Assembly (NCBI GenBank): GCA_903903635.1
Contig: CAIUZK010000040.1
Location: forward strand, 1 to 64,000
Reading direction: 5' to 3'
DNA length: 64,000 nucleotides
Source of the DNA: an uncultured Bacteroidota bacterium
GTDB lineage: Bacteria; Bacteroidota; Bacteroidia; Chitinophagales; Chitinophagaceae
The translations under genes and the position numbers were made by a program. The notes beneath the pieces were generated by a model. The model saw only the letters and a program-made list of their open reading frames with translations. It had not been told where the DNA came from and made no database searches. Positions 29,186 to 63,916 of the stretch are shown here, piece after piece. The stretch's first letter is position 1, and every line of letters starts with the position of its first letter.

Positions 29186-30211
29186 ATGATGAAGTATAAA
29201 TGTTTATCTAAAATAGCGGTTCACCTATTACTAAGCATGTTGCTGGTGGTATACGGCTATGCACAAGGTAAAACCACAGATAAGCATGATGATAATAATG
29301 GTCAGCCTTATATAAAATGGATAAGTCAGTATCCGGCCAGGGCTGTAGCTGAGGTGAAGCAAAACTCGTTCAAAAAAATATATAATTTCCTGGTACAGAA
29401 GGAAAGGGAATCTTATCTGGGCAGACCAATAGCAATTATAGCTGCAAATCCCGGCAGTTTCTGGGTGCTGGATCAGGGTGCTGAGACCATTTACAAGATG
29501 GAAAAGAACAAACTGGAGAAGCCCCATTCAATTAGAAAAAAGGAACATTATTTCAATTCGCTGATAGGGGAGTGCGCATTGCCCGGGGGAGCTATACTTT
29601 TTACAGATTCGCGGCTTAATAAGGTTTTCCTGATTGAAAAGGACGATAAAAAACTACTGCAGTTAAATGATACCATGCATTTTGAGCAGCCCACCGGGGT
29701 GGCTTATAATAAAGTAACAGACGAGGTTTGGGTAGTAGAAACAGCAGCTCACCGGGTATCCCTTTTTAAGCGGAATGGTGAACTGATAAAAAGGATAGGC
29801 ACAAGAGGTAATGAGAACGGGCAATTCAATTTTCCCACGTCAATTTGCATAGATAAAGCAGGTGATGCCTATGTAGTGGATGCCATGAATTTCCGGGTGC
29901 AGATATTTAATAAGAAGGGCGAATTTGTGTCGACTTTCGGAGAAGCAGGAGATGCCAGCGGTTCGTTTGCACGACCTAAGGGAATAGCAACCGATACGTA
30001 TGGCCATATTTACGTGGCAGATGCTTTGTTTCATGCGGTTCAGATATTCGACCGGGCAGGTAATTTTCTATATAGTTTCGGGCAGCAGGGGCGAGGCAAG
30101 GGTGAATTCTGGATGCCGGCAGGATTGTATATTGACGACAGGAATTATGTATACGTTGCCGATAGTTATAATTCAAGGATACAAATATTTCAGTTAATTA
30201 ACGGAGGTTAA
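29186..30211 (+). CDS. Secreted NHL-repeat beta-propeller protein
   Basis: A 341-residue protein with a signal peptide (LLSMLLVVYGYAQG). At least four NHL-type repeats run from about 150 to 338, each with a D-x-Y-V-A/V-D core: FNFPTSICIDKAGDAYVVD, FARPKGIATDTYGHIYVAD, FWMPAGLYIDDRNYVYVAD. Such propellers often sit next to multihaem cytochromes in extracellular electron transfer loci. It is translationally coupled to the 12-haem cytochrome: its stop overlaps the GGAGG ribosome-binding site of the next gene. Confidence 0.85.
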   Translation: MMKYKCLSKIAVHLLLSMLLVVYGYAQGKTTDKHDDNNGQPYIKWISQYPARAVAEVKQNSFKKIYNFLVQKERESYLGRPIAIIAANPGSFWVLDQGAETIYKMEKNKLEKPHSIRKKEHYFNSLIGECALPGGAILFTDSRLNKVFLIEKDDKKLLQLNDTMHFEQPTGVAYNKVTDEVWVVETAAHRVSLFKRNGELIKRIGTRGNENGQFNFPTSICIDKAGDAYVVDAMNFRVQIFNKKGEFVSTFGEAGDASGSFARPKGIATDTYGHIYVADALFHAVQIFDRAGNFLYSFGQQGRGKGEFWMPAGLYIDDRNYVYVADSYNSRIQIFQLINGG

Positions 30212-31947: not shown

Positions 31948-31975
31948 CGGTTTATTTAGTATCTTATTATTTATG

Positions 31976-32524: not shown

Positions 32525-33166
32525 ATGAAACTCAAAAAACTAGTTATGCTAAGCTCGATCCTTCTGGGGCTTACTCCGCTATGCTTAGGGCAAAACATTA
32601 AAGGTTCGCCACACGATTTCACCAGAAACACAGCATCAAACTCGTCTGGTGAGCTATGTATTGTTTGTCATGCACCACACGGAACAGATGCAACTGCAGT
32701 GCCATTATGGAACCATGGTACAACAACGCAGATTTTCTCCACTTACATTGGTTACAAATTCGACGCGTTGCCATCAATTACAGCTCCTGATGGCGCTTCA
32801 AAACTTTGCCTGAGCTGCCATGATGGTGTTAGTGCCATGAACCAGTTTGGCGGTCATGCAAATGGTACAAGCGCACCCGGTCCAACTTACTTAGGAGTAC
32901 ATGCATCCAATCTTGGTATTGATCTTACCAACGACCATCCGGTATCATTTGTTTACAATACAGCTCTTGCAACTCTTGACGGAGCATTAAAAGATCCAAG
33001 TACAGCAACAACAAGCCTTGGTGGTACAATCGCTACCGATATGCTTGATATCAACAGTAAAGTACAATGTCCTTCTTGTCATGAAGTTCACGACCAGACC
33101 ATCTACAGATTTGGAAAGATCAGCAATGCAGGCAGTGCACTATGTTTAACATGCCATAATAAATAA
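32525..33166 (+). CDS. Tetrahaem cytochrome c, candidate OmcE-like filament subunit
   Basis: The protein has 213 residues with a signal peptide ending at LCLGQ. Four CXXCH sites: CIVCH, CLSCH, CPSCH, CLTCH. Additional histidines that could be distal ligands occur at SPHDF near the mature N-terminus, CHAPH, LWNH, GGH, GVH, NDHPVSF and CHEVH. Size, haem number and the N-terminal HDF motif resemble the tetrahaem cytochromes known to polymerise into extracellular nanowires; that resemblance is by eye. The next gene is a paralogue, and both resemble the N-terminal third of the 12-haem protein. Confidence 0.88.
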   Translation: MKLKKLVMLSSILLGLTPLCLGQNIKGSPHDFTRNTASNSSGELCIVCHAPHGTDATAVPLWNHGTTTQIFSTYIGYKFDALPSITAPDGASKLCLSCHDGVSAMNQFGGHANGTSAPGPTYLGVHASNLGIDLTNDHPVSFVYNTALATLDGALKDPSTATTSLGGTIATDMLDINSKVQCPSCHEVHDQTIYRFGKISNAGSALCLTCHNK

Positions 33167-33230
33167 CGAAAGGAATCAATTTTAAATATTGATCGAAAAA
33201 AATTCTTAACAAAACAAAATAAAAATATTT

Positions 33231-33962
33231 ATGAGATTCAAATCATTTTTTATCGCAAGTTCCATAGTCCTGGGCCTGACACAATTATGCTACGGGCAGG
33301 CAGGAACAATAGTGGGGTCTAAACACGATTTCTCGTTAGCCAATAATACGTGGAATTTCAGTACCCCGGTTACCGCACAGTTGCAGGGCCAGATATGCCG
33401 CCCATGCCATGCGCCACACAACAGTAATATACGCGATGTTGCCGCTATCGGTGGGGGCTATTCCAATACACCAGGGGCAGGTAGTTTCGGCCCATTGTGG
33501 GACCATACTCTTTCTACTCAGACCTACAATATCTATTCGCAAGGATATAATTTCTGGAAAGAAGGTGCTGCTACAGTTGGTAATCCAGACGGAAGCTCAA
33601 AGCTTTGCTTAAGCTGTCATGATGGTACTGTAGCACTTGCTAACTTCCGTACATTTGCTACTGCTACTACCAAAATGTCAACTTTTAATGGTGGTGCATC
33701 TAATCTGGGTACAGACCTTAGTACATCACACCCTATTTCGTTTACTTACAATACAGCATTGGCAACTACAGACCACAAAATATGGGATCCATCATCTACA
33801 CCATCAGGTGTTCATAGCGGAACCATTGATGCAGATATGCTGGAGAACGGAAAGCTACAGTGTATTTCCTGTCATGATGCTCATAACGGAGCTGGCGTAA
33901 ATCGTTTACTTATCAAAAGTAACGTAGGAAGTGCATTGTGTTTTACTTGTCATAAACTATAG
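33231..33962 (+). CDS. Tetrahaem cytochrome c, tandem paralogue
   Basis: The protein has 243 residues with a signal peptide ending at LCYGQ. Four CXXCH sites: CRPCH, CLSCH, CISCH, CFTCH. Shared blocks with the upstream gene are SKHDFS, CHAPHN, SKLCLSCHDGT, LGTDLSTSHPISFTYNTALAT and ALCFTCHK. It lies 64 bp after the previous gene with no terminator between, and 45 bp before the giant Ig-repeat gene, so the three form one transcription unit under the promoter at 32441. Confidence 0.88.
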   Translation: MRFKSFFIASSIVLGLTQLCYGQAGTIVGSKHDFSLANNTWNFSTPVTAQLQGQICRPCHAPHNSNIRDVAAIGGGYSNTPGAGSFGPLWDHTLSTQTYNIYSQGYNFWKEGAATVGNPDGSSKLCLSCHDGTVALANFRTFATATTKMSTFNGGASNLGTDLSTSHPISFTYNTALATTDHKIWDPSSTPSGVHSGTIDADMLENGKLQCISCHDAHNGAGVNRLLIKSNVGSALCFTCHKL

Positions 33963-44492: not shown

Positions 44493-44672
44493 ATTTAAGG
44501 GAATTGTCATATTTGTTTTAGGACGAAAATGGCAATTAAGGGAGGTTGATTTTTCTGAAGATTGTACTCGCCAATTCAATATCTCACTTCTCCCGTTGCA
44601 CTGATCACTGTTATTGTAACATTTAGGTTAGGGCTATTTATTTTGGATTTTAAATCTGCAACCAGAAAGGAA

Positions 44673-49675: not shown

Positions 49676-50101
49676 ATGAAAAGTAACATAAAAAGCTCAA
49701 AACTACCAGGCGCAATAGCAACCTGCACAATAGCCGCCGCATTTACATTTTTGTTTGCATTTACTCCTGCACCACAGGCAAATGTATGGACAGCCCCTGC
49801 TACTGCAGATAAAGAAAAGAATCCGATAGCCGCTGATGCCGCATCTATTGAGGCAGGCAAGGATGTTTATAAGAAGAAATGCTATGATTGCCATGGAAAG
49901 AAAGGTAAGGGAGATGGCCCTAAAAGCTCTGAGTTGGATAAGGCGCCACAGGATTTTACTAAAGGTGATTTCCAGAAACAAACTGATGGTTCACTTTTCT
50001 GGAAAATCGGCGAAGGCAAGAAACCAATGCCTGGTTTCAAACATGAACTAAGTAAGGATCAGCGTTGGCAGGTTATCAATTATATCCGTACACTGAAATA
50101 A
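49676..50101 (+). CDS. Monohaem cytochrome c, class I (module B)
   Basis: A 141-residue exported protein (signal or anchor AIATCTIAAAFTFLFAFTP). One CYDCH site, GKGDGPKSSELDKAPQDFT, KKPMPGFKHELSKDQRW (candidate axial Met) and a final QVINYIRTLK. It is nearly a twin of 52885-53304 and more distantly related to 39390-39788. It lies 33 bp after the Ig-like gene and closes the core of module B. It is the likely periplasmic electron acceptor. Confidence 0.88.
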   Translation: MKSNIKSSKLPGAIATCTIAAAFTFLFAFTPAPQANVWTAPATADKEKNPIAADAASIEAGKDVYKKKCYDCHGKKGKGDGPKSSELDKAPQDFTKGDFQKQTDGSLFWKIGEGKKPMPGFKHELSKDQRWQVINYIRTLK

Positions 50102-50162
50102 TAATCAGATAACTTTTTTTTATTTTTTTCAACCATAATCATTAACAATCAAATCTAAATTT

Positions 50163-51419
50163 ATGAGAAAATTTACAAGGCATTCAGGCGCCATCTTGTT
50201 AATCGCAACAATAATATTCACTGCTGTTAATTGTACCAAAAACAATCAGGTAATTGATTCGAATTCATCAACTACCGCGGCAACAATTCTGAATTCAATT
50301 AAGGGGACTGCCACATTGCAGCCAATTGGTGGCAGTGCATGGGACGGCACAATAGAAGCCGCATGGGCAAATGCACCAAAACTGTCGGTATTAGCTACTG
50401 TACCTGCGCCAGGCAATAATACTTTCACAGGATATAATGGCAATACAGATAGCATTACCATCCGTTCGATGTATGATGCAGCCAACATTTATTTCCTCGT
50501 AGAATTCAATTCTGATTTCAAGAGTGTTTATTCTTCTCCCTGGTACTTTAATCCAACAACAAAATTATGGGCTCAGGAAGTTGCTACACCATCAAAAAAT
50601 GCAGATGGCGTAACATTCAGGCCCAGCTTTTCACAAGACCAGTTTGTTATTATGTTTAACATTAACAACTCATGTCCTTCCTTTAATACACTTTCCTGTT
50701 ATGCTGCCTGCCATATAAATACTGGTTACGGCGATTCTTCGGTTGGCGCTAGCGGAACTATGCATACTGTAGGATCAAGCGAAATTCTTGATGTATGGCG
50801 TGCAAGGACTATCCAGGTACTTAATGAAAACCAGTTGAACGACTGCTATATCTGGGACGGCGGCGGAGTGCTGAACAAGAATGAAGTTACAGCCGATCCT
50901 ATGGCAGCTACTTCAGACGGAGGATTCAGCAATAAACAAACAAAAACGATTACCGGAACAACTACAAAGGTTTCAATTCCTACATGGGTAATACCAGCCG
51001 GTGGTTATTCAAATGGAGTGATATTCCAGAAAGATACTTTATCAGGTACTGCAATTAAAGTTACTGCTGTTGATACCAACGGAGTTCTTACTCTGGCTAA
51101 TGGCAGTAAAATTGATCCACGCACATCAGCCTCAGGAACCAACTACCAGCAAGTGGGATATGGCGATGGCCCTAATTGCATACCAGGCAGCATAGTATCA
51201 AATTATACAGGCAGCCGCGGCGATGTTACAGCAAATTATTACTGGACAGGTACAGGATGGCGCTTGTTGTTGAGCCGCAAACTGAATACCGGAGATACCA
51301 AGTATGATGCGGACTTCTCTTCACTGGCAGATCAGCCATTTGGTGTGGGTGTTATGTTCGACGGAGCTGATAACCAACATGCTATTGTTCCAGGTCTGAC
51401 TTTGCACTTTAAGAAATAA
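50163..51419 (+). CDS. Ethylbenzene-dehydrogenase-gamma-like haem-binding lipoprotein
   Basis: A 418-residue lipoprotein (TIIFTAVNC). The sequence matches the EB_dh fold by eye: WDGTIEAAWANAPKL, SMYDAANIYFLVEF, FVIMFNINNSC, GTMHTVGSSEILDVWRARTIQ and FGVGVMFDGADNQH. In DMSO-reductase-family enzymes this domain is the gamma subunit holding a haem. Here it has also a CYAACH (CX3CH) motif, so a covalent haem is possible. The catalytic alpha subunit is absent from the window, so it is an orphan, perhaps acting purely as an electron carrier. Confidence 0.72.
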   Translation: MRKFTRHSGAILLIATIIFTAVNCTKNNQVIDSNSSTTAATILNSIKGTATLQPIGGSAWDGTIEAAWANAPKLSVLATVPAPGNNTFTGYNGNTDSITIRSMYDAANIYFLVEFNSDFKSVYSSPWYFNPTTKLWAQEVATPSKNADGVTFRPSFSQDQFVIMFNINNSCPSFNTLSCYAACHINTGYGDSSVGASGTMHTVGSSEILDVWRARTIQVLNENQLNDCYIWDGGGVLNKNEVTADPMAATSDGGFSNKQTKTITGTTTKVSIPTWVIPAGGYSNGVIFQKDTLSGTAIKVTAVDTNGVLTLANGSKIDPRTSASGTNYQQVGYGDGPNCIPGSIVSNYTGSRGDVTANYYWTGTGWRLLLSRKLNTGDTKYDADFSSLADQPFGVGVMFDGADNQHAIVPGLTLHFKK

Positions 51420-51447
51420 ATTATGATTTACAATTAATATTTTCTTC

Positions 51448-51846
51448 ATGAAAAAAATATTGTTAAATACGCTGGCTGTGTGTGCGGCGCTTGCAGTGCT
51501 GACCACAGGTTGCCGCAAGGATACGACACTTATAGTTCGGAGTGATTCTGCGGTTTCCGGTACTGTTTCTTTCAGTAAGGACCTGGTGCCCATTTTTGCA
51601 AAGAACTGTGCATTGAGCGGTTGTCATGCCGATGGTGGTAAATCGCCTACGCTTACAGCATCCAAAGCCTACGCTTCACTGAAGGGAGGGAACTTTGTGG
51701 ATACCACAAAACCTGCCAATAGTATCATATATGAGCGACTAACCGGTAAGTTAAATCCATCCATGCCATTAGGAGGAGCCAGCAATCCTTCTAATATCAA
51801 CGGATTGATACTTGCCTGGATAAAACAAGGTGCCAAGAACAATTAA
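51448..51846 (+). CDS. Small haem lipoprotein with CX4CH motif
   Basis: A 132-residue lipoprotein (LAVLTTGC). The single haem site is CALSGCH, a CX4CH motif in the context IFAKNCALSGCH that is common in Bacteroidetes cytochrome-like lipoproteins. SMPLGG near residue 108 may supply the axial Met. It lies between the gamma-like lipoprotein and a barrel gene, in one operon by spacing (28 and 22 bp). Confidence 0.82.
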   Translation: MKKILLNTLAVCAALAVLTTGCRKDTTLIVRSDSAVSGTVSFSKDLVPIFAKNCALSGCHADGGKSPTLTASKAYASLKGGNFVDTTKPANSIIYERLTGKLNPSMPLGGASNPSNINGLILAWIKQGAKNN

Positions 51847-51868
51847 GTAACAATTTAAAAAAGCTAAA

Positions 51869-52795
51869 ATGAAAATACTATCTAAAATAAATCCGGTTCG
51901 TAATCGTCTGATGATGATTACAGGATGCATTTTGCTGGCTGCAGGCAGCTATGCTCAGGATGCAGAAAAACCAGAGGAGGCCCCTGCTGCAAAAAAGACG
52001 TATGTAAACGGCACCTTTGCCAGCAACCTGATCATAGATAATCAGACAGTGATGGTTCCGGTGAAAAAAACGTTTGAGTTTACGATTCAACATCGTTTTG
52101 GTATTGTCAACAACGGGTACGCTGATATGTACGGCATATTCGCTCCTGCGAATATCCGCCTGGGATGGAATTATACTCCTATTCAGAATCTTCAGTTTGG
52201 TATTGGTGCCTGCAAGGATAAAATGCAATGGGACGGAAATGTAAAGTATGCGTTTCTGAGGCAATCAGCAAAAGGCGGATCTCCTGTAAGTATTACTTAT
52301 TATGGAGACATGGCTATTTCAACAATTCCGAAAAAAGGAAATTTCGTGAATGATGCCGACAGGATATCCTACTTTAGCCAGATCATTATTGCAAGAAAGA
52401 TAACTAAGAAATTCTCAGCTCAGGTTTCGCCCAGTTTATCTTACTTCAATAACATAGCCGGCTACATGGCTTCTGATGGTACTATTCAGCCAAGAATGAA
52501 TAATGCACATCTGGCAATTGCATTCATGGGGCGCTATAAGTTAACTGAAGGAATGAGTTTTATGCTCAATTATGATCAGCCGCTTACGCAGCATACCACT
52601 GATAATCCTCATCCTAATGTCAGCTTCGGTTTGGAAATGAATACAATTGCGCATACATTCCAAATGTTCTTTGGTAGCTACCAGGGTATCATTCCGCAGC
52701 AAAACAATGTCTTTAATCAGAATGATATTTCAAAAGGCCAGTTCATGTTTGGATTTAATATCAGCAGGAGATGGTATCATGATTCAGAAGATTAA
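51869..52795 (+). CDS. DUF5777-like outer-membrane beta-barrel
   Basis: A 308-residue protein with a signal peptide (LLAAGSYAQD), then an alternating beta pattern: FEFTIQHRFGIVNNGY, LQFGIGACKDKMQWDG, VSITYYGDMAIST, FSQIIIARKITKKFSAQVSP, FQMFFGSYQGI and final FMFGFNISRRWYHD. This fits the Bacteroidetes DUF5777 barrel family, regularly found beside the EB_dh-like and CX4CH lipoproteins. The family function is not established. Confidence 0.75.
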   Translation: MKILSKINPVRNRLMMITGCILLAAGSYAQDAEKPEEAPAAKKTYVNGTFASNLIIDNQTVMVPVKKTFEFTIQHRFGIVNNGYADMYGIFAPANIRLGWNYTPIQNLQFGIGACKDKMQWDGNVKYAFLRQSAKGGSPVSITYYGDMAISTIPKKGNFVNDADRISYFSQIIIARKITKKFSAQVSPSLSYFNNIAGYMASDGTIQPRMNNAHLAIAFMGRYKLTEGMSFMLNYDQPLTQHTTDNPHPNVSFGLEMNTIAHTFQMFFGSYQGIIPQQNNVFNQNDISKGQFMFGFNISRRWYHDSED

Positions 52796-52810
52796 TAAAT
52801 TTATTTGGTA

Positions 52811-52846
52811 ATTGCTTTTGGCAAATATTTATTTGCCAAAAGCAAT
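52811..52846. terminator. Long hairpin between the DUF5777 and monohaem cytochrome genes
   Basis: Perfect 18-bp arms beginning AATTGCTTTTGG (52811-52828 and 52829-52846) with essentially no loop. It may terminate, attenuate or stabilise the upstream transcript; the cytochrome at 52885 has no obvious promoter of its own, so partial read-through is likely. Confidence 0.75.
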
Positions 52847-52884
52847 TATTGATTTTATATTGTTCAACCAAAAAATAAGTGATT

Positions 52885-53304
52885 ATGCGTGTTCTTCAGA
52901 ATAGTAAATTAGCCGGTTTGTTTATTGTTGGCCTGGCGGCAACAACGATGGCGTTTTTGTTTGCTTTTGCACCAGTACCGCAAAAGAAGGAACGGAATGT
53001 ACCCCCTGAGGCAGCTAAAGAGAAAAATCCTATTAAGGCTGATGCCGCTTCTCTGGCAGCAGGTAAGCGGATTTATAATTTCAAATGCGTGTCTTGTCAT
53101 GGCAGTAAAGGCAAGGGTGATGGCCCCAAAAGTGCAGAATTTGATCAGAAGCCACAAGATTTTACTTCTCCTGATTTTAAGAAGCAGTCTGATGGAGCAT
53201 TATGCTGGAAAATTACTTTGGGTAATACCACAATGCCTTGCTTCAAACACCAGATGACCAAGGATCAGCGTTGGCAGGTGATCAATTATTTGCGTACGCT
53301 GTGA
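52885..53304 (+). CDS. Monohaem cytochrome c, class I (third paralogue)
   Basis: A 139-residue exported protein (GLAATTMAFLFAFAP). One CVSCH site, GKGDGPKSAEFDQKPQDFT, TTMPCFKHQMTKDQRW and QVINYLRTL. It is closest to 49676-50101. ATG 52885 was chosen; the frame opens with GTG six bases earlier. An extra Cys beside the putative axial Met (MPCF) is unusual. It precedes an outer-membrane barrel and a small haem lipoprotein. Confidence 0.87.
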   Translation: MRVLQNSKLAGLFIVGLAATTMAFLFAFAPVPQKKERNVPPEAAKEKNPIKADAASLAAGKRIYNFKCVSCHGSKGKGDGPKSAEFDQKPQDFTSPDFKKQSDGALCWKITLGNTTMPCFKHQMTKDQRWQVINYLRTL

Positions 53305-53380
53305 TTTTTTTATACATTCATAAGTGCTAACCGAATGCATAAAGCATAATAGGAATATTTTATCATAAAAATAAATTGAA

Positions 53381-54613
53381 ATGAACACAAGAAATGTATT
53401 TAGGAAATCACTGATGGCCGCATCGGCATTTGCTTTATGCCTTGCCACAAATTCTTACGCGCAGGAAGGTTCGGATAAATCAGATTTGTCCAAACAGGTT
53501 TCATCATTAATGCCAGGTGAGAGCAATTTTATGATGGCGGGACTGGTTACTTTTGGCTTTGTTAACCAGTCAACCAGTTACACATCGGGCGGCTTCAAGG
53601 CAACCGACAAAACAAATAGTCTCGGGGATGTGGATCGTTATGAATTCAGCCCTATGTTTCTGTGGCGACATGGCGACAAACTTCTTGCTGAGTTTGAGCC
53701 TTCCTGGGATGGCAGCGCCATAGGTGTTAACTGGGCCGACGTTTCTTACTTTGTTTCGCGCGGCCTGATAATAAGAGGTGGTTATATTGTTTTGCCATTT
53801 GGTACTTATACAAAACGCCTTGCGGCAGGTTGGATCAATAAGCTGCCATCAGACCCAATGGGTGTAGATATGGCAGGGAGTGATTTCGGAGTAGAGTTTG
53901 AAGGAGGATTCCCATTAGGGAATATGAAGTGGAGTTATGACGTAAGTCTTTCTAATGGGTTTGCATTGGCCAATGATGGAACAATTACCGGTGTGGGTAT
54001 CAATGCTATGAACAATGGTAAAACTGTTACCGGGAGGCTGGCATTATTACCTTTATCGAATTCCAGTCTCGAAATTGGCGCATCAGGTTTGGTTGGCAGC
54101 CTTGCTACTCCCGCTGCTGCAACGTTCAGCAACATTAATTCAACAGATACAAAAGGACCATCTCTGAGTATGTATGCCGTAGACCTTAATTTTCTGCACA
54201 ACATTAATCCGGTGCAATTAAATTTCAAGGCTCAATACAGCACGGCTGCTGTGAGTAACATGAACTACATTAATCCGGCTGATACAACATCTTACACGTT
54301 TACTAATAGTACAAGTTCTTATTTTGCCCAGTTGTCGGTGAGGCCTACACAATCGAAAAATAAGGTTTTAAAGAAGCTTGAACTGGCGATGAGGTATGTC
54401 AATTATACAGCGCCCAAACAATCCCTTTGGGGACAGAATTACAGCGAAGTGGATGTTTCACTTGATTATTGGCTGAGTTGGAGAACTGTTCTTAAACTAG
54501 GCTTTGAGAATTTAAAATCAGATGGCACAACGTCATTTACCAACTCAAACGGCCTGGACGGCAACTCTACAAGTATTAACCGATTGATCATCCAATTTGC
54601 AACCGAATTATAA
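53381..54613 (+). CDS. Outer-membrane barrel protein (OprO/P-like)
   Basis: A 410-residue protein with signal MAASAFALCLATNSYAQ and a mature barrel. FGFVNQSTSYTSGGF, YEFSPMFLWRHGDKLLAEFE, VSYFVSRGLIIRGGYIVLPF and LPSDPMGVDMAGSDFGVEFEG resemble the start of phosphate-selective-type porins. The end, SINRLIIQFATEL, is a closing strand. The solute is unknown; next to cytochromes it may pass an electron-accepting anion or stabilise a surface complex. The following gene starts 2 bp after its stop. Confidence 0.72.
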   Translation: MNTRNVFRKSLMAASAFALCLATNSYAQEGSDKSDLSKQVSSLMPGESNFMMAGLVTFGFVNQSTSYTSGGFKATDKTNSLGDVDRYEFSPMFLWRHGDKLLAEFEPSWDGSAIGVNWADVSYFVSRGLIIRGGYIVLPFGTYTKRLAAGWINKLPSDPMGVDMAGSDFGVEFEGGFPLGNMKWSYDVSLSNGFALANDGTITGVGINAMNNGKTVTGRLALLPLSNSSLEIGASGLVGSLATPAAATFSNINSTDTKGPSLSMYAVDLNFLHNINPVQLNFKAQYSTAAVSNMNYINPADTTSYTFTNSTSSYFAQLSVRPTQSKNKVLKKLELAMRYVNYTAPKQSLWGQNYSEVDVSLDYWLSWRTVLKLGFENLKSDGTTSFTNSNGLDGNSTSINRLIIQFATEL

Positions 54614-54615
54614 TT

Positions 54616-54894
54616 ATGTATATGAAAATATCTGCTAAAAATTTTACTGCAATAGCGCTTGTTGGATTGGCAGCGCTTGGTTTTATAGGTATAAACGGCT
54701 GTGTTGAAGGAAAACAGTTAGCCGAAAAGAACGGGATGAAATTGTGGTCTGAAAATTGCCAGAGATGTCATTTTTCACCATCATCCAATGCGTTTTCAAA
54801 TGAGGAATGGAAGACAGTGGGAATGCATATGCAAAGCAGGGCGCTTTTAACCAGCAACGAAAGAGATAAGATTATTGAGTTCTTACAAAACTAA
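54616..54894 (+). CDS. Small monohaem cytochrome c lipoprotein
   Basis: A 92-residue lipoprotein (ALGFIGINGC). One CQRCH site; GMHMQSRALLT has Met residues that may be axial ligands. It is the intact paralogue of the frameshifted gene at 4735-5002. It starts 2 bp after the barrel gene and is the last gene of the module B operon. Such minimal carriers probably sit on the inner leaflet of the outer membrane. Confidence 0.82.
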   Translation: MYMKISAKNFTAIALVGLAALGFIGINGCVEGKQLAEKNGMKLWSENCQRCHFSPSSNAFSNEEWKTVGMHMQSRALLTSNERDKIIEFLQN

Positions 54895-55153: not shown

Positions 55154-55885
55154 CTATTTCACTACTGCATCTTCTATCATTATTTCGAATTTGTAGCCAT
55201 AGCCAAAATCTTTATCAATAGCTACTTTACCCTCTAAAGTAACGATATCACCTGCTTTTACAGTGCCTGCTGACGTTATTATCAGATCGAACTTTCCGTT
55301 AGCTTCAGTACCATCCTGAAGGTGAATCCAGTTTTTGTTCATTATTTCCGCATTGAACTTGGTAACTTCCCCCTTTATTTTTACGGTTTTACCAACATAG
55401 GCATCCTTTTTTGAGAACAATTCGGCAATAGTAATGCCATCTTTGGGTGTTTCTATTTTTATATTCTTTTTCACATCAGGAGATGCCTTTCGGGTGTAGG
55501 GTTGGTTGTTTTTCGGCTCGCCACCGACGCCGAGTGTATTGGCTGCCACAGCAGGTTTACTGCCAAATGGCTCTGCACTAACGCCACCCAAAAACAACAC
55601 TTCATCAAAGGTTTTATGAAGTTCTTTGCTCTCGAATAGCTTCATAGGTAAACCTTCTGAATAGTAATAAGTATCGCCGGCATTTGCCTGCATTGATGGC
55701 ACCGCCAGCCACTTGAGCGTGTCATTCTCCTTAACATGCAGGTAGGTATAATTGGAGGTTTGAATTACTTCTGTTACCAGTACTTTATGATTGCTGATGT
55801 TTTTAGAGTCAGGTGCATAAAATGGAGTCGATTTACAAACCGGAATTATAGCGAAAATTCCGATTATAATGGATATTATTTTCAT
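55154..55885 (-). CDS. OB-fold lipoprotein, paralogue of 28019-28837
   Basis: The protein has 243 residues with a probable lipoprotein signal (GIFAIIPVC). An N-terminal domain with YTYLHVKENDTLKWLAVPSM and GDTYYYSEGLPM is followed by a linker and a C-terminal OB-fold with ITIAELFSKKDAYVGKTVKI, IMNKNWIHLQDGTEA and GDIVTLEGKVAIDKDFGYGY. It differs from the paralogue mainly in the linker. It is again divergent from an NHL gene heading a cytochrome operon. The repeated pairing suggests that the two products work together; no function is known. Confidence 0.77.
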   Translation of the reverse strand: MKIISIIIGIFAIIPVCKSTPFYAPDSKNISNHKVLVTEVIQTSNYTYLHVKENDTLKWLAVPSMQANAGDTYYYSEGLPMKLFESKELHKTFDEVLFLGGVSAEPFGSKPAVAANTLGVGGEPKNNQPYTRKASPDVKKNIKIETPKDGITIAELFSKKDAYVGKTVKIKGEVTKFNAEIMNKNWIHLQDGTEANGKFDLIITSAGTVKAGDIVTLEGKVAIDKDFGYGYKFEIMIEDAVVK

Positions 55886-56148: not shown

Positions 56149-57240
56149 ATGAAAAAAATTCGTGGATAAAATTATTCCATTTTTTTACTATTGTTATGTG
56201 CCAGTTCTTTATTCGTTGGATCGTGCGGCAGATTTCTGCATAAGCCGGCAAAATTTAAAAGGATTGATGGGGTGTTTTATCCACCACCACCCGATACGGC
56301 TCATATACAATATCTCACAAGTATCAATGGTTCCGATTTTATGGGTAACCGTACAAAATTCGCTACTTTCATAATGGGCACTGAAGAGGTGTCACGGATG
56401 GTGAAACCTTATGGAATCGGCTTGAGGAATGGTAAACTCTATGTTTGCGATCCTGGTATTGGTGGTCTGGAGATATTTGATTTTACTCAGAACAAGTTTT
56501 CCAATTTTATTCCCGGAGGTACAGGGCAGCTGAGGTCTCCCTTAAATTGTTTTATAGATAAGAATGATTACTTGTACGTTGCTGATCCCGGCAGGCATGA
56601 AGTGGTAATGTTTGATAGTGTAGGGGAATATCTGGGTAAGGTAGGAGATACTGGCACTTTTAAGCCTACTGATGTTATGATATTTGAAAATGAGATGTGG
56701 GTGACCAATCCTGATAATCACAAACTGAATGTATATGACAAACATACCCATCAGATGCTAAGGTATTTTGCTGATCAATATGGTCCTGGTGATGATGGGT
56801 TTCTTTATTCTCCTTTCAATGTATATATAACCAATGATATTGTATATATAACAGATTTTGGAGATTTTAAAATCAAGCAATACGATCATAATGGAAAATT
56901 CATTACATCTATTGGTAGTTATGGCACAGGCACAGGTCAGTTTGTAAGACCCAAGGGTATTGCAGTAGATAAAGAAGCAAATCTATTTGTAGTCGATGCC
57001 GGTTTTGAAAATACACAGATGTTCAATAGCAAGGGGCAGTTATTGATGTTCTTTGGAGGACCCTATAAAGGACCGGGAGATATGTGGTTACCAGCCAAAG
57101 TTATTGTGGATTATGATAACATGGAGTATTTCACGAAATATGTGGATCCAAATTATAAACTGAATTACCTGATTTTAGTATCCAATCAATATGGACCAGA
57201 TAAGATCAATGTATACGGATCTATTACACCTGTAAAATAA
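56149..57240 (+). CDS. NHL-repeat lipoprotein with an in-frame stop in its signal peptide
   Basis: The frame from ATG 56149 reads MKKIRG, then TAA (56167-56169), then NYSIFLLLLCASSLFVGSC, a perfect lipoprotein signal interrupted by one stop. If the stop is real, the only starts left are TTG 56191 or ATT 56179, giving a shortened signal. The rest is intact: a six-bladed NHL-like propeller with LYVCDPGIGGLEIFD, YLYVADPGRHEVVMFD, VYITDFGDFKIKQYD and FVRPKGIAVDKEANLFVVD. It heads the conduit operon. Explanations are a sequencing error, a recent nonsense change or internal initiation. Confidence 0.75.
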
Positions 57241-57257
57241 TATCAATAGTAAGGGAT

Positions 57258-59549
57258 ATGCAACGCAAACCGAACAATAATGTAGCTTATTTTATTAGTA
57301 TTCTTCTAATTACATTGTTTTTCGGTTGTACTGTGCAGCAAACTCACAAAACACTAACCTTTTTCTTTGATGGAGTTGATAAGGTTGTTTTTTTTAATGA
57401 CTATTTATCGCATGATACACTAGGTAAAATTGCCGCAGCAAAGAGGGATGCCTTGCTAAAGAAAAACAGGCCTGACCTATGTGTGCATAAGCCATATAAA
57501 GAGAAAAAGTGCGAAGCATGTCATACTCCGGATAAGCGTCTGCTTATGCCAATGCCTGATCTGTGTTTCAAGTGTCATACCAGTTTTAGCCAGACATATA
57601 AGGTTGTGCATGGTCCGGTAGCATCGGGCGGCTGTTTGAATTGTCATAACCAGCATTCAGCCAAATATCCTAAACTGTTGATACGGCAGGGGCAGCAAAT
57701 TTGCCTCTATTGTCATAATGGATCTTTAGTTTTTGCCAATAAAGTTCACAGGGATATTGAAGATGCAGAATGTACTATGTGCCATAACCCGCATGGAGGT
57801 AAAACAAGGTACATGCTAAAGGATAACATATCAAGGGATGCCAATCGTATCGGCCTTATGGATGATATATCCTACAGGCACTTATATGGGCAGGTATTCT
57901 GCAAGGTTCCGGGTGATGCCAATAATGTCAATGAAATTACTATTCTGGATAGTAAAGGTGTTGTAGTCGCTACTGCTCACCCTGATGCCAATGGTAAATT
58001 CTTCCTTGCAAATTTGCATCCGGATCAGAACTATACCTTCCGGTTAAAGAAAGAGATGACTGATTGCAAGATCAATATCATGGATAACAATGGTACTCTA
58101 TTGTATGTTATTGAAAAGAACAGAAAGGACAAGTATGTCTTTGACAAGGCAAATTATGAGGCAGTGCATACAGCTATGAATGATGCTCGCTTCCTTGGTG
58201 ATACCCTGACAAGTGATATTACAAAACCCAATGTTATCAACAATTCAGATGTTCCTTCAACAAAAGATACAGCATCAGCGCCATTGATAAATGGTATTAA
58301 CAAAGTGGAGGAGCCGGCGAAAAATAATCAGGCTAGTGGGGTTGTTGCTGAGCCAGTTGATGTAAACAAGAAGGGGAAGATTGTGGTTGCCAACTTGCCA
58401 GATACGGTTACTACCCAGAAGTATCTTGGATTGGATAAGGAACCGGTAAAAGCTGAAAATCCTGATGTTAAAAAGGCAGTAGATACCAGTACTTATAAAG
58501 GCAAGATTGTGGTGAAGGATCTGCCAGGCGATAAGAGCCTCAAGAAATTGGTTGATGAAAATAAACTGAATGATACCACTACTGACGTTGCCGTTCAAAC
58601 TCCGAAAGTAGATACTGAGAAATACAGCGGAAAGATTGTTGTTTACTCATTGCCGGACAATGAAAAACTGGAGAAACTGGTAGCTGATAATAAGAAGAAA
58701 GATACAACCACAGACAATAAGGAAAAGGATATTGTAAAGCCAGCACAGCCAGGAAATAAGAGCAGGATTGTAGTAGCTGATTTGCCCGATACATCTGATG
58801 TTACTTCGACCGGCAGGTTCCGCAATATGGCAGGGGCAACTGAGGTAATCAGGAAATTTGAAGAAGGAGGGGTTAAACTCTCAGACCTTACACTTCAGAT
58901 AGGGAAGTATTATGAAGGTACAGTAGTTTGTATTCTGAATGATGCTGGTGACCTTGTAGATATAGCCAACGTAAATGGCAAAGGTGAGTTTTATATGTAC
59001 GACTTCTTGTATTACAGGCTAAGTCTGCCTCCGGCCAATAGCGGCATTATCACTCAATCCATTTTCCTGAATGAGAAAATGGAAGTGATAGAGGTTATGA
59101 ATAAGCGGCTGGTGAATGGCAGGTATTCCTATAGGCAGAATAGTAAGGAGCCTGAAAATCAGAAGGCAACGGTGAGGATATTTGCCAATAATGCAAATGC
59201 TGTATTATTCTCTTCTATTTATTTTGTCGAAGGAAAGGCTACAATTACAGATCAGGGTATAAATGAACTTAAAAAGACAGTGGAATACCTTAATAATCAT
59301 CCGAAAGCAAAAGTTTATCTGGCATCACATGCCGGATCGCATGGAACAACGGAGTTCAACAGGCAGCTTTCTGATAAACGAGCCAAGGCAACAATGGATT
59401 ACCTGACCGGTAATGGAATAAGTGCAGACAGGATAAGAGAAAAGGGATACGGGAATGCAAAGCGTTCAAAGAAATTTGAAATTACTCCTGGATCGGATGA
59501 GGAAAACCAGAAGAACAGGAGAGTGGATATTTATATAAAGGTTAATTAA
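57258..59549 (+). CDS. Pentahaem cytochrome fused to an OmpA peptidoglycan-binding domain
   Basis: The 763-residue lipoprotein (LLITLFFGC) has three parts. Residues about 75-185 hold five CXXCH sites: CEACH, CFKCH, CLNCH, CLYCH, CTMCH. The middle has two carboxypeptidase-regulatory-like segments (VVVATAHPDANGKFFLANL; LVDIANVNGKGEFYMYDFLY) around four copies of a GKIVV-x-x-LPD repeat (about 375-510). The end is an OmpA_C domain (FVEGKATITDQGINEL, ASHAGSHGTTEFNRQLSDKR, NRRVDIYIKVN). It would tether a haem relay to peptidoglycan beneath the outer membrane. AAGGG precedes the ATG. The same operon encodes a barrel and a 15-haem protein. Confidence 0.88.
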   Translation: MQRKPNNNVAYFISILLITLFFGCTVQQTHKTLTFFFDGVDKVVFFNDYLSHDTLGKIAAAKRDALLKKNRPDLCVHKPYKEKKCEACHTPDKRLLMPMPDLCFKCHTSFSQTYKVVHGPVASGGCLNCHNQHSAKYPKLLIRQGQQICLYCHNGSLVFANKVHRDIEDAECTMCHNPHGGKTRYMLKDNISRDANRIGLMDDISYRHLYGQVFCKVPGDANNVNEITILDSKGVVVATAHPDANGKFFLANLHPDQNYTFRLKKEMTDCKINIMDNNGTLLYVIEKNRKDKYVFDKANYEAVHTAMNDARFLGDTLTSDITKPNVINNSDVPSTKDTASAPLINGINKVEEPAKNNQASGVVAEPVDVNKKGKIVVANLPDTVTTQKYLGLDKEPVKAENPDVKKAVDTSTYKGKIVVKDLPGDKSLKKLVDENKLNDTTTDVAVQTPKVDTEKYSGKIVVYSLPDNEKLEKLVADNKKKDTTTDNKEKDIVKPAQPGNKSRIVVADLPDTSDVTSTGRFRNMAGATEVIRKFEEGGVKLSDLTLQIGKYYEGTVVCILNDAGDLVDIANVNGKGEFYMYDFLYYRLSLPPANSGIITQSIFLNEKMEVIEVMNKRLVNGRYSYRQNSKEPENQKATVRIFANNANAVLFSSIYFVEGKATITDQGINELKKTVEYLNNHPKAKVYLASHAGSHGTTEFNRQLSDKRAKATMDYLTGNGISADRIREKGYGNAKRSKKFEITPGSDEENQKNRRVDIYIKVN

Positions 59550-59579
59550 AAATGTTTGATGTCATTTAAAGCTTATGGG

Positions 59580-61541
59580 ATGCGTTTTTTGAAACTAATT
59601 ATCGCCACTTTAGCTGTTTTTATTCCGGCTCTATGCTACTCACAGCAAAGCATGCTGTCATTGGGCATGTGGAATCTTACTGCACTATCAGGTGAGCTGA
59701 AATTAGGTGGATTATATGGTAAAGGCATCATTAATACTTATGGAATTGATAATAAAGTAACCACATCAAATTATTACGGAGGTATTTTTATTAAATCAAG
59801 TAGTTATATCTGGAATCGTAATTTTATGACTGTAGATATAGATGGCGGTTATTATCCTGAATCACGACAGGACCTTTATCTGGTTTCACCCAATATTTAT
59901 AATGCAATCAACACCAAAAAACTTCATATAAGTTCAACGCTTTTCCCCAGAAAGCTCATTAGCCTTACAGGGCATATTAGCTGGGACAACAGTTATGATA
60001 GTCGTGAAAATTTGACGGATATACGCACAAATAGTAAGACCTATGGCGCTAATCTTTCGTTCAGAAACAAGTATGCACCTCTTACTTTGGCTTATTTTAA
60101 TAGTGACTGGGATAGTAAAGAAATTATGACCGGGCGGGATTTCAATTATAAGCAAAAAAGCCTGGAAGGTAGAGTTACCAGGGTATTTGGCAAGAGGGAT
60201 AACAATGAACTGGTGTATACGCATAATGATTACGCCCGTAAGGACTACAGTTTGTATACTATAAGAAATGTTGCGGATAATATCACTCTTCAAGATGGTA
60301 TATTCCTCGATTCATCGCGCAGGTCAATGTTCAATTCCAACATTTATGGTACTCATCAGACCGGCAGCGATAGTTTCAATCAGTTCAGGTTAAGTGAAAG
60401 TTTATTTTTAAACATGAAACATAATCTGACTTTTAATTCGGGATATACTTTTTATTATATTGAAAGGTTGCCTCAGAAATTAAGACAGAATTCAGTTAAT
60501 GCTATGTTGGGGCATCAGCTATTTGAAAGTTTACATTCAGGTCTGGTATTTGAATACAATAATGCACATGAAACTTCATATACCGAGGACAATACGAAAG
60601 CCGGATTAGAATTGAGTTATACCAAAAAAACCTTTGCACATGGGCTCTTAAGTCTGCAATATAATTACAGCAGGGTTTTCGAGAAAAGGACCAGTACGGA
60701 TGTATTCCTGGATATTAAGAATGAGATATACGTAATCTACGACCGCATACTAATTAAGCATCCTTATATAGATCAATCCTCCATACAAGTAAAGGATTCA
60801 ACCGGTACTGCCATCTATATTTTAGGGCTTGATTATATGCTAACAATGATAGGTAGTTTTATAGAAGTTCAACGTATTCCAGGTGGATTAATTCCTGAAA
60901 ACGGGAAGATATTTTTGTATTACCGAGCTACTCAGCCAGGCTCTTACAGCTACGAAATCAATCTGAATTATTTTTCCTTCAACTATTCCCTGTTTAATCA
61001 TTTTCTGGATCTTTACTATAAATCCAGCCACAATGAATTTGCGAATGTGAAGATGGCAGATAATTTATTACTTGACAGATTGACCCAGGAGATATTGGGT
61101 ACCAGCTTGCATTATAAATCAGCTACCGTGGGTATAGAGTTGGATAAATACCAGAGTTCATTGGTACCTTATAACATGACCCGCTACTTCTTAAACTGGC
61201 AAGGGCACTATAAAGAGAATTTTATTTTTTCTGTTAATGCCAACTGGCGAGATTATAAATTACCTACTGAGGATGGTCACCGGATTTATAAAGATTTTAA
61301 CAGCATGATGGCTTATGCATTCACCGCTGTATCAAAGCTGGATGTTACGGTAGGCTATCAGTTTCAGGAAGGGCCGCAGATTGATCTTGAAATGATATCT
61401 TTAAGGGCGAAGTATTCAACAGTTTTCAGGAAGATTACCTTTGTAGCGGGGTTAGATTCATACGACCGAAATTATCTGAGATCGCAGAAAACAAATTATA
61501 TGGGAGTTTATTTCCAAATCATTAAAAAGTTTAAATATTGA
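59580..61541 (+). CDS. Outer-membrane barrel, candidate conduit porin (MtrB/PioB-like in size)
   Basis: The protein has 653 residues from ATG 59580; signal LIIATLAVFIPALCYSQ. Frame-opening TTG/ATG at 59556/59559 would lengthen the signal. The mature protein is a regular succession of amphipathic strands with aromatic girdles (e.g. IKSSSYIWNRNFMTVDIDGGY, YANNA-type turns, FIFSVNANWRDYKLP), ending in NYMGVYFQIIKKFKY. Length suits a 26-28-strand barrel. A short Ig-like insertion (PGGLIPENGKIFLYYRATQPG) near 440 is notable. No sequence similarity to MtrB can be claimed by eye; the role is inferred from its place between two multihaem genes. Confidence 0.75.
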   Translation: MRFLKLIIATLAVFIPALCYSQQSMLSLGMWNLTALSGELKLGGLYGKGIINTYGIDNKVTTSNYYGGIFIKSSSYIWNRNFMTVDIDGGYYPESRQDLYLVSPNIYNAINTKKLHISSTLFPRKLISLTGHISWDNSYDSRENLTDIRTNSKTYGANLSFRNKYAPLTLAYFNSDWDSKEIMTGRDFNYKQKSLEGRVTRVFGKRDNNELVYTHNDYARKDYSLYTIRNVADNITLQDGIFLDSSRRSMFNSNIYGTHQTGSDSFNQFRLSESLFLNMKHNLTFNSGYTFYYIERLPQKLRQNSVNAMLGHQLFESLHSGLVFEYNNAHETSYTEDNTKAGLELSYTKKTFAHGLLSLQYNYSRVFEKRTSTDVFLDIKNEIYVIYDRILIKHPYIDQSSIQVKDSTGTAIYILGLDYMLTMIGSFIEVQRIPGGLIPENGKIFLYYRATQPGSYSYEINLNYFSFNYSLFNHFLDLYYKSSHNEFANVKMADNLLLDRLTQEILGTSLHYKSATVGIELDKYQSSLVPYNMTRYFLNWQGHYKENFIFSVNANWRDYKLPTEDGHRIYKDFNSMMAYAFTAVSKLDVTVGYQFQEGPQIDLEMISLRAKYSTVFRKITFVAGLDSYDRNYLRSQKTNYMGVYFQIIKKFKY

Positions 61542-61546
61542 TATTT

Positions 61547-62893
61547 ATGCGCAATAAAATAAGTATAATATTAGTAATGCTAATGGCTGTTTTTTTTACA
61601 TCCAATGGACAGATTGATACTAGTAAGGGAAGTTGTGCCAGCGCAGGATGCCATGGGAATCTTATCCAACAGGAGGTAGTGCATGACGCATTGAAAAGAG
61701 GTTGTGATAAGTGCCACCAAAGTAACGGGCAACAACATCCTCAGAAAAATGTTAAGACCTTTACTATGGTCAAGAATATACCTGAACTGTGCTATAAATG
61801 CCATGATGAAAATAATACGCTGAGGGTAGTGCATTCTCCTGTTCAGAAAGGTAATTGCCTGGAATGTCATACGCCGCATAGTTCCCCGGAAAGTTATTTG
61901 CTTAAAAAGAATCCTGTAGGTGAAGTGTGCGCACAATGTCATACACTTGAATCAGCCAGGAAGCGTTTCAAACATGATCCGGTAGCTAAAGGTGATTGTG
62001 CCAAATGCCACGATCCTCATACATCGGATATAGACAGGCTCCTTATAAAAGAACCGCCGGCTTTATGTGTGAAATGTCATAAACCACAGGCTGAACAACT
62101 GAAAATGGCCAATGTGCATCCGCCATTCCAGAATAACTGCCTGAATTGTCATAACCAGCACAGTTCAAACGAAGAGAAACTGCTTGATCTTACACCGCAA
62201 AAGCTGTGTCTGTATTGTCATGAAGATATGAAGAAGAAGATAGATAATGCTACACTTGTGCATGGTGCTGTTGCCGATAAACGGTCTTGTATTAATTGCC
62301 ATTCACCACATGCATCTGATGAAAAAAAATTCCTGATAAAGGACACTAAGACACTATGCCTGAGTTGTCATGACCGTACCTATACTACTGGCCCGAGAAA
62401 GATTACAAACATTAGTCAGGTATTGCAAAAGAGTAAGAATATACATGGTGCCATTGAAAAAGTAGGTTGTGTTGGCTGTCATGATCCTCATGCTTCGAGC
62501 AATCCCTTCCTGCTATCCAAACCATTCCCATCAGGATCGTATGCGCCTGCTACCAAAGAAAGTTTCGCATTATGCTTTAATTGCCATAAAAGCGAAATCT
62601 TAGAAAAAGCAGTTACTACCACAGCTACTGGTTTCAGGAATGGGGATAAGAATCTTCACGTGGTACACATAAACGGTGAGAAAGGCAGAAGCTGCGTGCT
62701 TTGTCATAATCCTCATGGATCAGGTAATGATCACCTTATCAATGACAGGACCCAGTTTGGCGGATGGGAGATGCCATTGAAATATAAAACCATTGAAAAT
62801 GGTGGTTCCTGTGCGCCAGGATGCCATGCAGAAAGGAAATATGAACGGACATTAGCAATTCCCGCAACACCTGTACCTCCGGTTAAGAAATAA
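61547..62893 (+). CDS. Pentadecahaem cytochrome c
   Basis: A 448-residue protein from ATG 61547 (the frame opens with TTG 61538). Signal IILVMLMAVFFTSNGQ. Haem sites in order: CASAGCH (CX4CH), then thirteen CXXCH (CDKCH, CYKCH, CLECH, CAQCH, CAKCH, CVKCH, CLNCH, CLYCH, CINCH, CLSCH, CVGCH, CFNCH, CVLCH), then CAPGCH (CX3CH), fifteen in all, about one per 30 residues. Many sites are followed by xPH or xQH, giving distal His ligands. It resembles long periplasm-to-surface wires of porin-cytochrome systems. It lies 5 bp after the barrel gene. Confidence 0.92.
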   Translation: MRNKISIILVMLMAVFFTSNGQIDTSKGSCASAGCHGNLIQQEVVHDALKRGCDKCHQSNGQQHPQKNVKTFTMVKNIPELCYKCHDENNTLRVVHSPVQKGNCLECHTPHSSPESYLLKKNPVGEVCAQCHTLESARKRFKHDPVAKGDCAKCHDPHTSDIDRLLIKEPPALCVKCHKPQAEQLKMANVHPPFQNNCLNCHNQHSSNEEKLLDLTPQKLCLYCHEDMKKKIDNATLVHGAVADKRSCINCHSPHASDEKKFLIKDTKTLCLSCHDRTYTTGPRKITNISQVLQKSKNIHGAIEKVGCVGCHDPHASSNPFLLSKPFPSGSYAPATKESFALCFNCHKSEILEKAVTTTATGFRNGDKNLHVVHINGEKGRSCVLCHNPHGSGNDHLINDRTQFGGWEMPLKYKTIENGGSCAPGCHAERKYERTLAIPATPVPPVKK

Positions 62894-63199: not shown

Positions 63200-63916
63200 T
63201 TGAAAAAAATAAGCTGCGATTCCTGCCCTAACAATTCGTGTCTCATTAAAAAAAACTTCATTAAGGAATGGAGTAGTTTTCTGGAGCATGAAAAGTATCA
63301 GGCGCTTTACAAAAAAGATTACTCGGTTTTTAGTGTGGGTAACCCCATACTCGGGCTGTTTTTTGTTCAGAGCGGGATGATCAAAGAGTTTATACTGAGA
63401 CCACATAACGAAGTGGAAATTGTCAATTTTGCTTCAATAGGTCAGGTTTTCGGTCATGCGGGTTTTGAAAATAATTTTTATTCATTTGGTGCTGATGCAA
63501 AAATTGACTCCATCATTTGTTTCTTTAATAATGAAATATTGAGGGAAATGTATGTTTCAAATCCCAAATTGCTCTTTGACCTTATGTTATTCTATTCCAA
63601 TGAGCATAGTGAATCTACTTACCGGTTGATGAGTATTTCACAAATGAACCTGAGAGAGAAAGTTGCCAGCGTTCTCTTTTACATGTTCCGCAAATTTGGA
63701 TTGAACAGTCAGAATGAATTACCGGAGTATTTTACCAGGGAGGATATAGCCAGCCTTGCCTGTACCAACTCCGAACAGGTTTCAAGACAATTGTCCGACT
63801 TTCAGAAGGAGCGAATCATTGAAAAGCGAACAAGAAAGATTGCCATTCTGCAACCGGCGAAGCTTAAAGAAATTGTTAGTGAATATCTCGAGTACTATAA
63901 TATTGCCACTACTTAA
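63200..63916 (+). CDS. FNR-type Crp/Fnr-family regulator 2
   Basis: A 238-residue protein starting at TTG 63200. Cys6-x2-Cys9-x4-Cys14 at the N-terminus and Cys107 (SIICFFNNEIL, aligned with FNR Cys122) could hold an oxygen-sensitive [4Fe-4S] cluster. After the cyclic-nucleotide-like barrel and dimer helix (NLREKVASVLFYM), the recognition helix TNSEQVSRQLSDF keeps the Glu-xx-Ser-Arg contacts of E. coli FNR (VETISR). It should therefore read TTGAT-like half-sites such as the boxes in this window, including two in front of its own gene. Confidence 0.85.
   Translation: MKKISCDSCPNNSCLIKKNFIKEWSSFLEHEKYQALYKKDYSVFSVGNPILGLFFVQSGMIKEFILRPHNEVEIVNFASIGQVFGHAGFENNFYSFGADAKIDSIICFFNNEILREMYVSNPKLLFDLMLFYSNEHSESTYRLMSISQMNLREKVASVLFYMFRKFGLNSQNELPEYFTREDIASLACTNSEQVSRQLSDFQKERIIEKRTRKIAILQPAKLKEIVSEYLEYYNIATT

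Follow-up and report, generated by a model that had tools for sequence, protein, structure and literature searches.

We analysed a 64,000 nucleotide stretch of DNA from an uncultured Bacteroidota bacterium of the Chitinophagaceae (contig CAIUZK010000040.1, positions 1 to 64,000; hereafter the window), in which four genes at 56191-62893 form a run on the + strand. They encode an NHL propeller lipoprotein, a pentahaem lipoprotein, an outer-membrane beta-barrel and a multihaem cytochrome. The same window carries genes for OmcE-type nanowire proteins at 29186-33962, which the original prediction for this DNA had overlooked. We read the four-gene operon as a conduit of the Mtr kind that supplies electrons to an OmcE-type nanowire, with a probability of roughly two in three. 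The porin-cytochrome conduit itself had already been predicted, and this part is supported by the homology of the multihaem protein to MtrA and by the large predicted width of the barrel. As in porin-cytochrome conduits, the gene for a large outer-membrane barrel adjoins the gene for a secreted multihaem cytochrome. The features are collected in Table 1.

The genes of the operon are separated by gaps of 17, 9 and 5 bp, with the second gap being 9 or 30 bp depending on the start chosen. This agrees with the spacing of 5-30 bp given originally, and the predicted gene set (NHL lipoprotein, pentahaem-OmpA lipoprotein, barrel, multihaem cytochrome) also stands apart from details. A contig scan with three barrels provided eight related loci. 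They belong to metagenome-assembled genomes (MAGs) titled uncultured Bacteroidetes (L004, L005, L006, L010), to another Bacteroidetes MAG (L008), to KSB1 MAGs (L007, L009) and to a Kapaibacterium MAG (L011). With later additions 16 loci with barrels of the near type were annotated. The order NHL, pentahaem, barrel, multihaem was complete in 14 of these, including L102, where the pentahaem gene was recognised in a later inspection; in the other two (L010, L031) the contig or locus ends before the order is complete. The four-gene order therefore exceeds chance. Directly after the barrel the MtrA-like gene was found in 15/15 near-type loci that are uncut there, and the NHL gene was present in all near-type loci extending far enough upstream. 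In L008, L009 and L011 the NHL gene is immediately preceded by a tetrahaem gene, whose product in L008 matches the OmcE nanowire structure 7tfs with an E-value of 1.1e-27. A block of seven genes, in the order second NHL protein (NHL2), 12-haem protein, OmcE, NHL, pentahaem, barrel and multihaem, is complete in four loci: L008 (Bacteroidetes MAG), L011 (Kapaibacterium) as well as L099 and L101 (phylum of the KSB1 genome).

Among solved structures the best relative of the multihaem cytochrome is 6r2q chain A, which we take to be MtrA, the haem wire of MtrCAB. It was matched by the single sequence at 3.5e-15, and the profile match (Table 1) covers residues 99-325 of 333. In the PDB copy this chain bears the label 'cystathionine beta-synthase', evidently by mistake; the title of chain B is 'Structure of the Mtr complex'. 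The protein further matches doubled-CXXCH families and the DmsE-family decahaem model TIGR03508, for which 150.7 bits are below the cut-off of 192.2 bits but indicate homology all the same. The 15 haems originally predicted hold as the total number of motifs; only 13 are of the CX2CH type, to which one CX3CH and one CX4CH motif add. By count, 16 further His would suffice for bis-His ligation of all 15 haems. Haem number appears modular, with 15 motifs in 8/10 homologues and 11 in L008 and L011, and never ten. In 10/10 MtrA-like homologues the number of spare His at least equals that of the haem motifs (the count for L008 includes its OmpA tail), as expected from sequence for the bis-His haems of a wire. 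One may object that the barrel is a substrate porin unrelated to the multihaem proteins and that the latter act in soluble form in the periplasm, as respiratory proteins or enzymes, an objection to which the weaker NrfB-like and NrfH-like similarity of the multihaem protein would lend some weight. Yet the operon contains no enzyme partner, the spare His available for every motif speak against the soluble enzyme with a catalytic haem that the original prediction had itself considered, and barrel and multihaem genes adjoin in all of the uncut near-type loci, such that we consider this explanation very improbable.

The barrel was modelled with AlphaFold2 as 632 mature residues using 11 sequences. 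By our own count the model comprises 28 long strands, with a conserved insert of 83 residues after strand 17. The computed C-alpha radius for 28 strands is ~25 Å, compared to 23.5-24 Å for 26 strands, and the lumen should therefore be able to hold an MtrA-like wire. A lumen too narrow for a haem chain, named originally as an argument against a conduit, is not what the model predicts. In sequence searches the window barrel had no match in Pfam, NCBIfam or the PDB, and family searches with 11 barrel members gave just single weak matches, each from one member. The MtrB/PioB family PF11854 was matched neither by the window barrel nor by the 11 aligned members at E <= 1. Likewise 0/12 barrel-bearing genomes had a PF11854 porin, with the sensitivity of this search being unproven, given that 14 control genomes also lacked a match over the cut-off. 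The structure comparison with MtrB that had been proposed returned 6r2q chain B at Foldseek rank 5 (E 7.6e-8, template modelling (TM) scores of 0.39/0.38) with the highest query-normalised TM score among the best 50 matches, but it did not separate MtrB from generic barrels. The phylum of the KSB1 genome also contains a second, distant type of barrel, which is homologous to the window barrel (HHalign 99.8%), and the plasmid search found no barrel copies on plasmids. Barrels of 562-567 amino acids beside OmcE in genomes G408 and G290 were not homologous by profile (3.7% probability). We discarded a barrel match in G387 (locus L033, 25.6 bits) as fortuitous, the insert domain having matched within an unrelated frame of 1196 amino acids. 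Since the conserved insert resembles a stretch of the large secreted protein in L033, it could represent a small and mobile beta domain.

The nanowire cluster of the window starts with NHL2, followed by a 12-haem protein (11 CX2CH motifs and one CX3CH) and two tetrahaem proteins. Nine His are conserved in 6/6 aligned OmcE-type sequences, four of them in haem motifs; of the five others, four align by eye with His of 7tfs. Near full-length similarity to 7tfs, four haem motifs and these further His place the tetrahaem proteins in the OmcE-type class, as far as sequence can tell. The 12-haem protein, which carries an OmcE-like domain at its N-terminus, is a candidate filament adaptor or end-piece. 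Right after the OmcE-type genes, 34008-38756 encodes a protein of 1582 amino acids with repeated Ig-like units and, by eye, a C-terminal tail like those of the type IX secretion system; it is a possible surface partner.

Within genome samples the barrel was almost always accompanied by a match to the OmcE profile. Equal sizes and handles indicate that the paired searches covered the same genomes; the order and phylum samples were searched with a single barrel protein, such that distant barrels were possibly missed. The barrel was found in 2/248 genomes of the order sample, drawn from the order of the window, and the OmcE profile matched the same two. In the phylum sample the barrel occurred in 2/247 genomes and OmcE in six, two of them marginal, including both barrel genomes. 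For the class sample around the Kapaibacterium genome the numbers were 5/197 for the barrel (four strong, one chance-like) and 23/197 for OmcE, including the four strong ones, with 7 of the 23 matching only at 5.6e-6 to 4.7e-4. The phylum of G622, the KSB1 MAG of L007, contained 18/82 genomes with the barrel and 19/82 with OmcE, including those 18 (Fisher 3e-17, uncorrected for relatedness); the one extra genome matched OmcE at 8e-4. These 18 mix barrel types: eight matched below 1e-100, of which seven are full length and one (G666) is split over two contigs, and ten were partial matches at 5.5e-34 to 5.6e-17. Genomes picked for the barrel had the OmcE profile in 12/12 cases; G621 and G235 are the same genome under two handles, as are G626 and G397. 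Over all samples 28/29 genomes with a barrel match (E <= 1e-3) also matched the OmcE profile, the exception being G387. The two genes are usually close: for 23/27 barrel hits (25 genomes), some being fragments where a contig ends, the OmcE profile has a hit no more than 3.6 kb away. Beyond this distance were the window (25.6 kb), G235 (L006), G695 and G696.

These numbers bear on the question whether the operon could be a stand-alone porin-cytochrome conduit, next to which nanowire genes co-occur through a mineral-respiring lifestyle and common islands. Conduits of the MtoAB/PioAB type indeed do without a surface cytochrome (PMC6344600, PMC4245776). Furthermore, no OmcE-type gene adjoins the conduit operon in the window, L004, L005 and L006. 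Against a stand-alone conduit stand the adjacency in 23/27 hits and the co-occurrence in 18/18 barrel genomes of the 82-genome set, and we hold it to be improbable.

A different objection starts from assembly of the wire: barrel, NHL protein and pentahaem lipoprotein might mainly secrete or assemble OmcE-type filaments, with the MtrA-like protein as filament base or periplasmic store. A comparable role would be that of the osc genes, the companions of the nanowire cytochrome OmcS. The osc operon was reportedly described by Shen et al. in 2025. Two clusters without our barrel family were inspected, L071 (G408) and L072 (G290), which contain OmcE, NHL, a 12-haem-like protein, an 8-haem protein and the non-homologous barrel of 562-567 amino acids. 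Since both have an NHL and a barrel gene beside OmcE-type genes, it is NHL plus barrel that track the nanowire, as the secretion of filaments would lead one to expect. Clusters of this kind may also fulfil the same task by a parallel route; genes resembling two-component regulators lie alongside. In the same direction point both annotated loci of the second, distant barrel type (L096, L097), which lack a recognised MtrA-like gene directly downstream, and the proposal that the osc genes secrete OmcS (PMC13194489, PMC12977616). A role restricted to secretion is difficult to reconcile with the MtrA-like gene following the barrel in every uncut near-type locus, with the homology of its product to MtrA, which is known to span a barrel, and with the haem-rich lipoprotein that stays beside the barrel even in the distant-type loci L081, L082 and L097. 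Taken together, we regard it as an unlikely explanation.

The pentahaem lipoprotein (763 amino acids, five CX2CH motifs) ends in an OmpA-like domain; domains of this type usually have an Asp that binds peptidoglycan. In the window PF00691 is present, yet Gly occupies the Asp position (SHAG), while Asp is kept in L004 and L005 (AHTD) and in L010 (AYTD). The predicted OmpA tether is therefore weaker than it looks. Of ten pentahaem proteins tested against Pfam, four (window, L004, L005, L010) carry the domain and six (L006, L007, L008, L009, L011, L030) lack it; in L008 it is carried by the multihaem protein instead (5.9e-10). As judged from these sequences, the OmpA domain is thus accessory and changes place between the two haem proteins. 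With the domain missing on 6/10 pentahaem proteins, we rejected the idea that a periplasmic complex tethered by OmpA is what defines the system. From the unusual parts emphasised originally, the NHL protein proved constant and the composition is indeed unusual; the OmpA domain is not general and, with SHAG, doubtful as a tether. In distant relatives without an adjoining MtrA-like gene the pentahaem lipoprotein is kept, with five haems in L081, L082 and L096 and, through tandem repeats, 21 CX2CH motifs in L097 (8874-10643). This suggests that the pentahaem lipoprotein is able to serve as the wire in its place.

For the NHL gene a start at ATG 56149 had been proposed, which is untenable due to an in-frame TAA at codon 7 (56167-56169). 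TTG 56191 is the first possible entry into the open frame, and from there the lipoprotein signal is truncated. The damaged stretch (56149-56190) contains two neighbouring homopolymers, A7 and T7. Since relatives such as L004-L006 keep an intact full-length lipoprotein signal, an assembly error in the two homopolymers or a real lesion of the 5' end is possible. Acidic residues after the lipobox Cys constitute a surface-export motif; judged by eye, the lipoproteins lack this motif (the Cys assigned by the script was wrong in a few rows).

Several observations weigh against a conduit that feeds a nanowire. In the window the conduit and nanowire clusters are 22 kb apart, and the NHL start is damaged in the present assembly. 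Siderophore receptors and other large barrels score close behind MtrB in Foldseek, and the best 50 matches of VIA-align are other barrels, with MtrB not among them. The structure model of the 15-haem protein (10 sequences) reached a pLDDT of 36 and was discarded. Many genomes of the class sample have OmcE but not this barrel, and two of them (G408, G290) have a different barrel, without profile similarity, inside the OmcE cluster. The OmcE hits of G235 (L006), G695 and G696 are on another contig, and G619, G620, G625 (L004, L005, L010) and the second fragment of G666 were left out of the distance count. Because the 12-haem protein is matched by the OmcE profile too, through its OmcE-like domain, a match is not always proof of a stand-alone subunit; for G620 the stand-alone OmcE hits are fragments only. 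Finally, common lifestyle together with shared descent could explain the co-occurrence.

If the operon is a conduit feeding a nanowire, electrons would pass from menaquinol via the iron-sulphur (FeS)/NrfD modules to the small c-type cytochromes encoded between the two clusters; the presence of NrfD modules is the reason why we infer an outward flow. On the periplasmic face the pentahaem lipoprotein would hand them to the 15-haem protein, which would form a haem wire within the wide barrel, similar to MtrAB. The OmpA-like domain would be a possible anchor in some lineages, and a role as scaffold or in assembly would fall to the NHL propeller lipoprotein. As extracellular partner we propose, instead of an MtrC-like surface cytochrome, a polymer of the OmcE-type proteins (32525-33962), possibly joined to the conduit via the 12-haem protein (30214-31947). 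Because the four-gene set nearly always accompanies and usually adjoins nanowire genes in the searched genomes, it may be a socket for protein nanowires. According to a 2025 review (PMC12307469), the anchoring of nanowires in the outer membrane and the electron entry point are unresolved. More tentatively, and with odds that are rather against it, the MtrA-like protein in its barrel and the OmcE-type polymer would form one continuous haem chain from the periplasm to the outside, a membrane socket in which the 12-haem protein joins the two, its OmcE-like domain capping the filament, encoded by one conserved block in Bacteroidota, Kapaibacteria and KSB1.

With MtrCAB, MtoAB and PioAB the window system shares an MtrA-like multihaem gene beside a large outer-membrane barrel of similar or slightly larger predicted width. 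It differs in that barrels of the window type lack a PF11854 match and in having 11-15 haem motifs instead of 10; the operon is without an MtrC-like surface cytochrome and has the extra NHL and pentahaem lipoproteins. As we read it, this is a system that works like MtrAB yet fails the MtrB-family sequence test and the MtrA-family cut-off. The Geobacter Pcc/Ext systems (OmbB-OmaB-OmcB) likewise combine a barrel and a periplasmic multihaem cytochrome in one operon, and their porins are smaller, with 18-22 predicted segments compared to 28 predicted for MtrB (PMC4245776). Unlike them, the window operon has no recognised outer-surface cytochrome, its OmcE-type genes are found in a cluster of their own, and its haem protein is MtrA-type, as compared with the published description of Pcc. 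Regarding OmcE nanowires (PDB 7tfs; 9yuq), two tetrahaem proteins of the window match 7tfs; in contrast to these structures, the OmcE-type genes cluster with a conduit, and filaments of their products are a prediction. The osc operon similarly places genes beside a nanowire cytochrome, with proposed folding and secretion functions, but, as described in citing papers, concerns OmcS instead of OmcE.

PCC3 and PCC4 were also recognised as candidate conduits by gene organisation (He et al. 2017, PMC5566968). They differ from the window system by an inner-membrane protein and a mostly proteobacterial distribution, and the term 'NHL' is absent from the main text of that paper. The idea of a conduit in Bacteroidota is not new, because genes of putative PCCs, not homologous to those known, have been reported in a number of Bacteroidetes MAGs from lake metagenomes (He et al. 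2019, PMC6344600). These could be the same operon; the accessible part of the report gives no sequence, composition or link to nanowires. In a search of open-licence literature, which did not cover the OmcE structure paper, we found no description of the operon composition or of the conduit-OmcE block. Such a gene block would offer a small and concrete set of proteins for testing a conduit with an OmcE-type wire outside Geobacter. Candidate electron export across the outer membrane would extend to little-known freshwater Bacteroidota and KSB1, with a possible bearing on the respiration of iron and humic substances in lakes.

Table 1. Features of the conduit operon, the nanowire cluster and their surroundings
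Feature	Position	Strand	Evidence
NHL2, second NHL protein, first gene of nanowire cluster	29186..30211	+	PF01436 6.1e-27, synteny
12-haem protein, OmcE-type N-terminal 206 residues	30214..31947	+	7tfs_A 2.3e-35 over residues 5-206
OmcE-type tetrahaem nanowire subunit 1 (putative)	32525..33166	+	7tfs_A 2.4e-24 (residues 8-213), 9yuq_N 4e-23
OmcE-type tetrahaem nanowire subunit 2 (putative)	33231..33962	+	9yuq_N 3.4e-15, 7tfs_A 9e-12
Module 1: 4Fe-4S protein, NrfD membrane subunit, protein of ~304 amino acids	40250..43461	+	PF13247 1.2e-19, PF03916 6.6e-29
Module 2: 4Fe-4S protein, NrfD, protein of ~310 amino acids	46222..49642	+	PF13247 2.8e-22, PF03916 1.6e-29
Secreted OB-fold-like protein, divergent, upstream of conduit operon	55154..55885	-	paralogue 28019-28843 (-)
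NHL six-bladed propeller lipoprotein	56191..57240	+	PF17170 5e-8, PF01436 4.3e-6; true start uncertain
Pentahaem lipoprotein, FFFDGV N-terminal motif, C-terminal OmpA-like domain	57258..59549	+	PF09699 2.4e-25, PF00691 1.9e-14
Outer-membrane beta-barrel	59559..61541	+	AF2 pLDDT 87.8, pTM 0.68
MtrA-like multihaem cytochrome, 448 amino acids, 15 haem motifs	61547..62893	+	6r2q_A 8.7e-25, TIGR03508 5e-44
Crp/Fnr-type regulator, directly downstream of conduit	63200..63916	+	PF13545 3.2e-13
ResB/CcsA-type cytochrome c maturation gene, after regulator	C40:63940-67089		PF01578 2.4e-32, PF05140 1e-20

The surroundings of the two clusters look like an anaerobic respiratory island that spans from quinol to the outside. 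The FeS proteins of both modules belong to the Fer4_11 family. Module 1 is a probable menaquinol:periplasm electron module, and its third protein had no family match. Downstream of the conduit, the regulator is followed on the contig (C40) by the ResB/CcsA-type gene, an order that recurs in L004 and L005, as judged by position, length and look. The secreted OB-fold-like protein and its paralogue share 49% identity over 251 amino acids (1.6e-79). The paralogue is likewise divergent and just upstream of the nanowire cluster, such that each of the NHL-led clusters has one, and the divergent genes of L004, L005 and L006 are 52-59% identical to the OB-fold-like protein.

Between the two FeS/NrfD modules lies a gene for a Crp-type regulator (44562-45434). 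Small c-type cytochromes and an EB_dh-family protein are also encoded between the nanowire and conduit clusters: the region 49676-54894 contains monohaem cytochromes, the EB_dh-family protein, a CX4CH protein, a DUF5777 barrel and a porin-like protein of 410 amino acids. By eye, a similar-looking pair of cytochrome and porin genes is seen again at C40:78265-80104.

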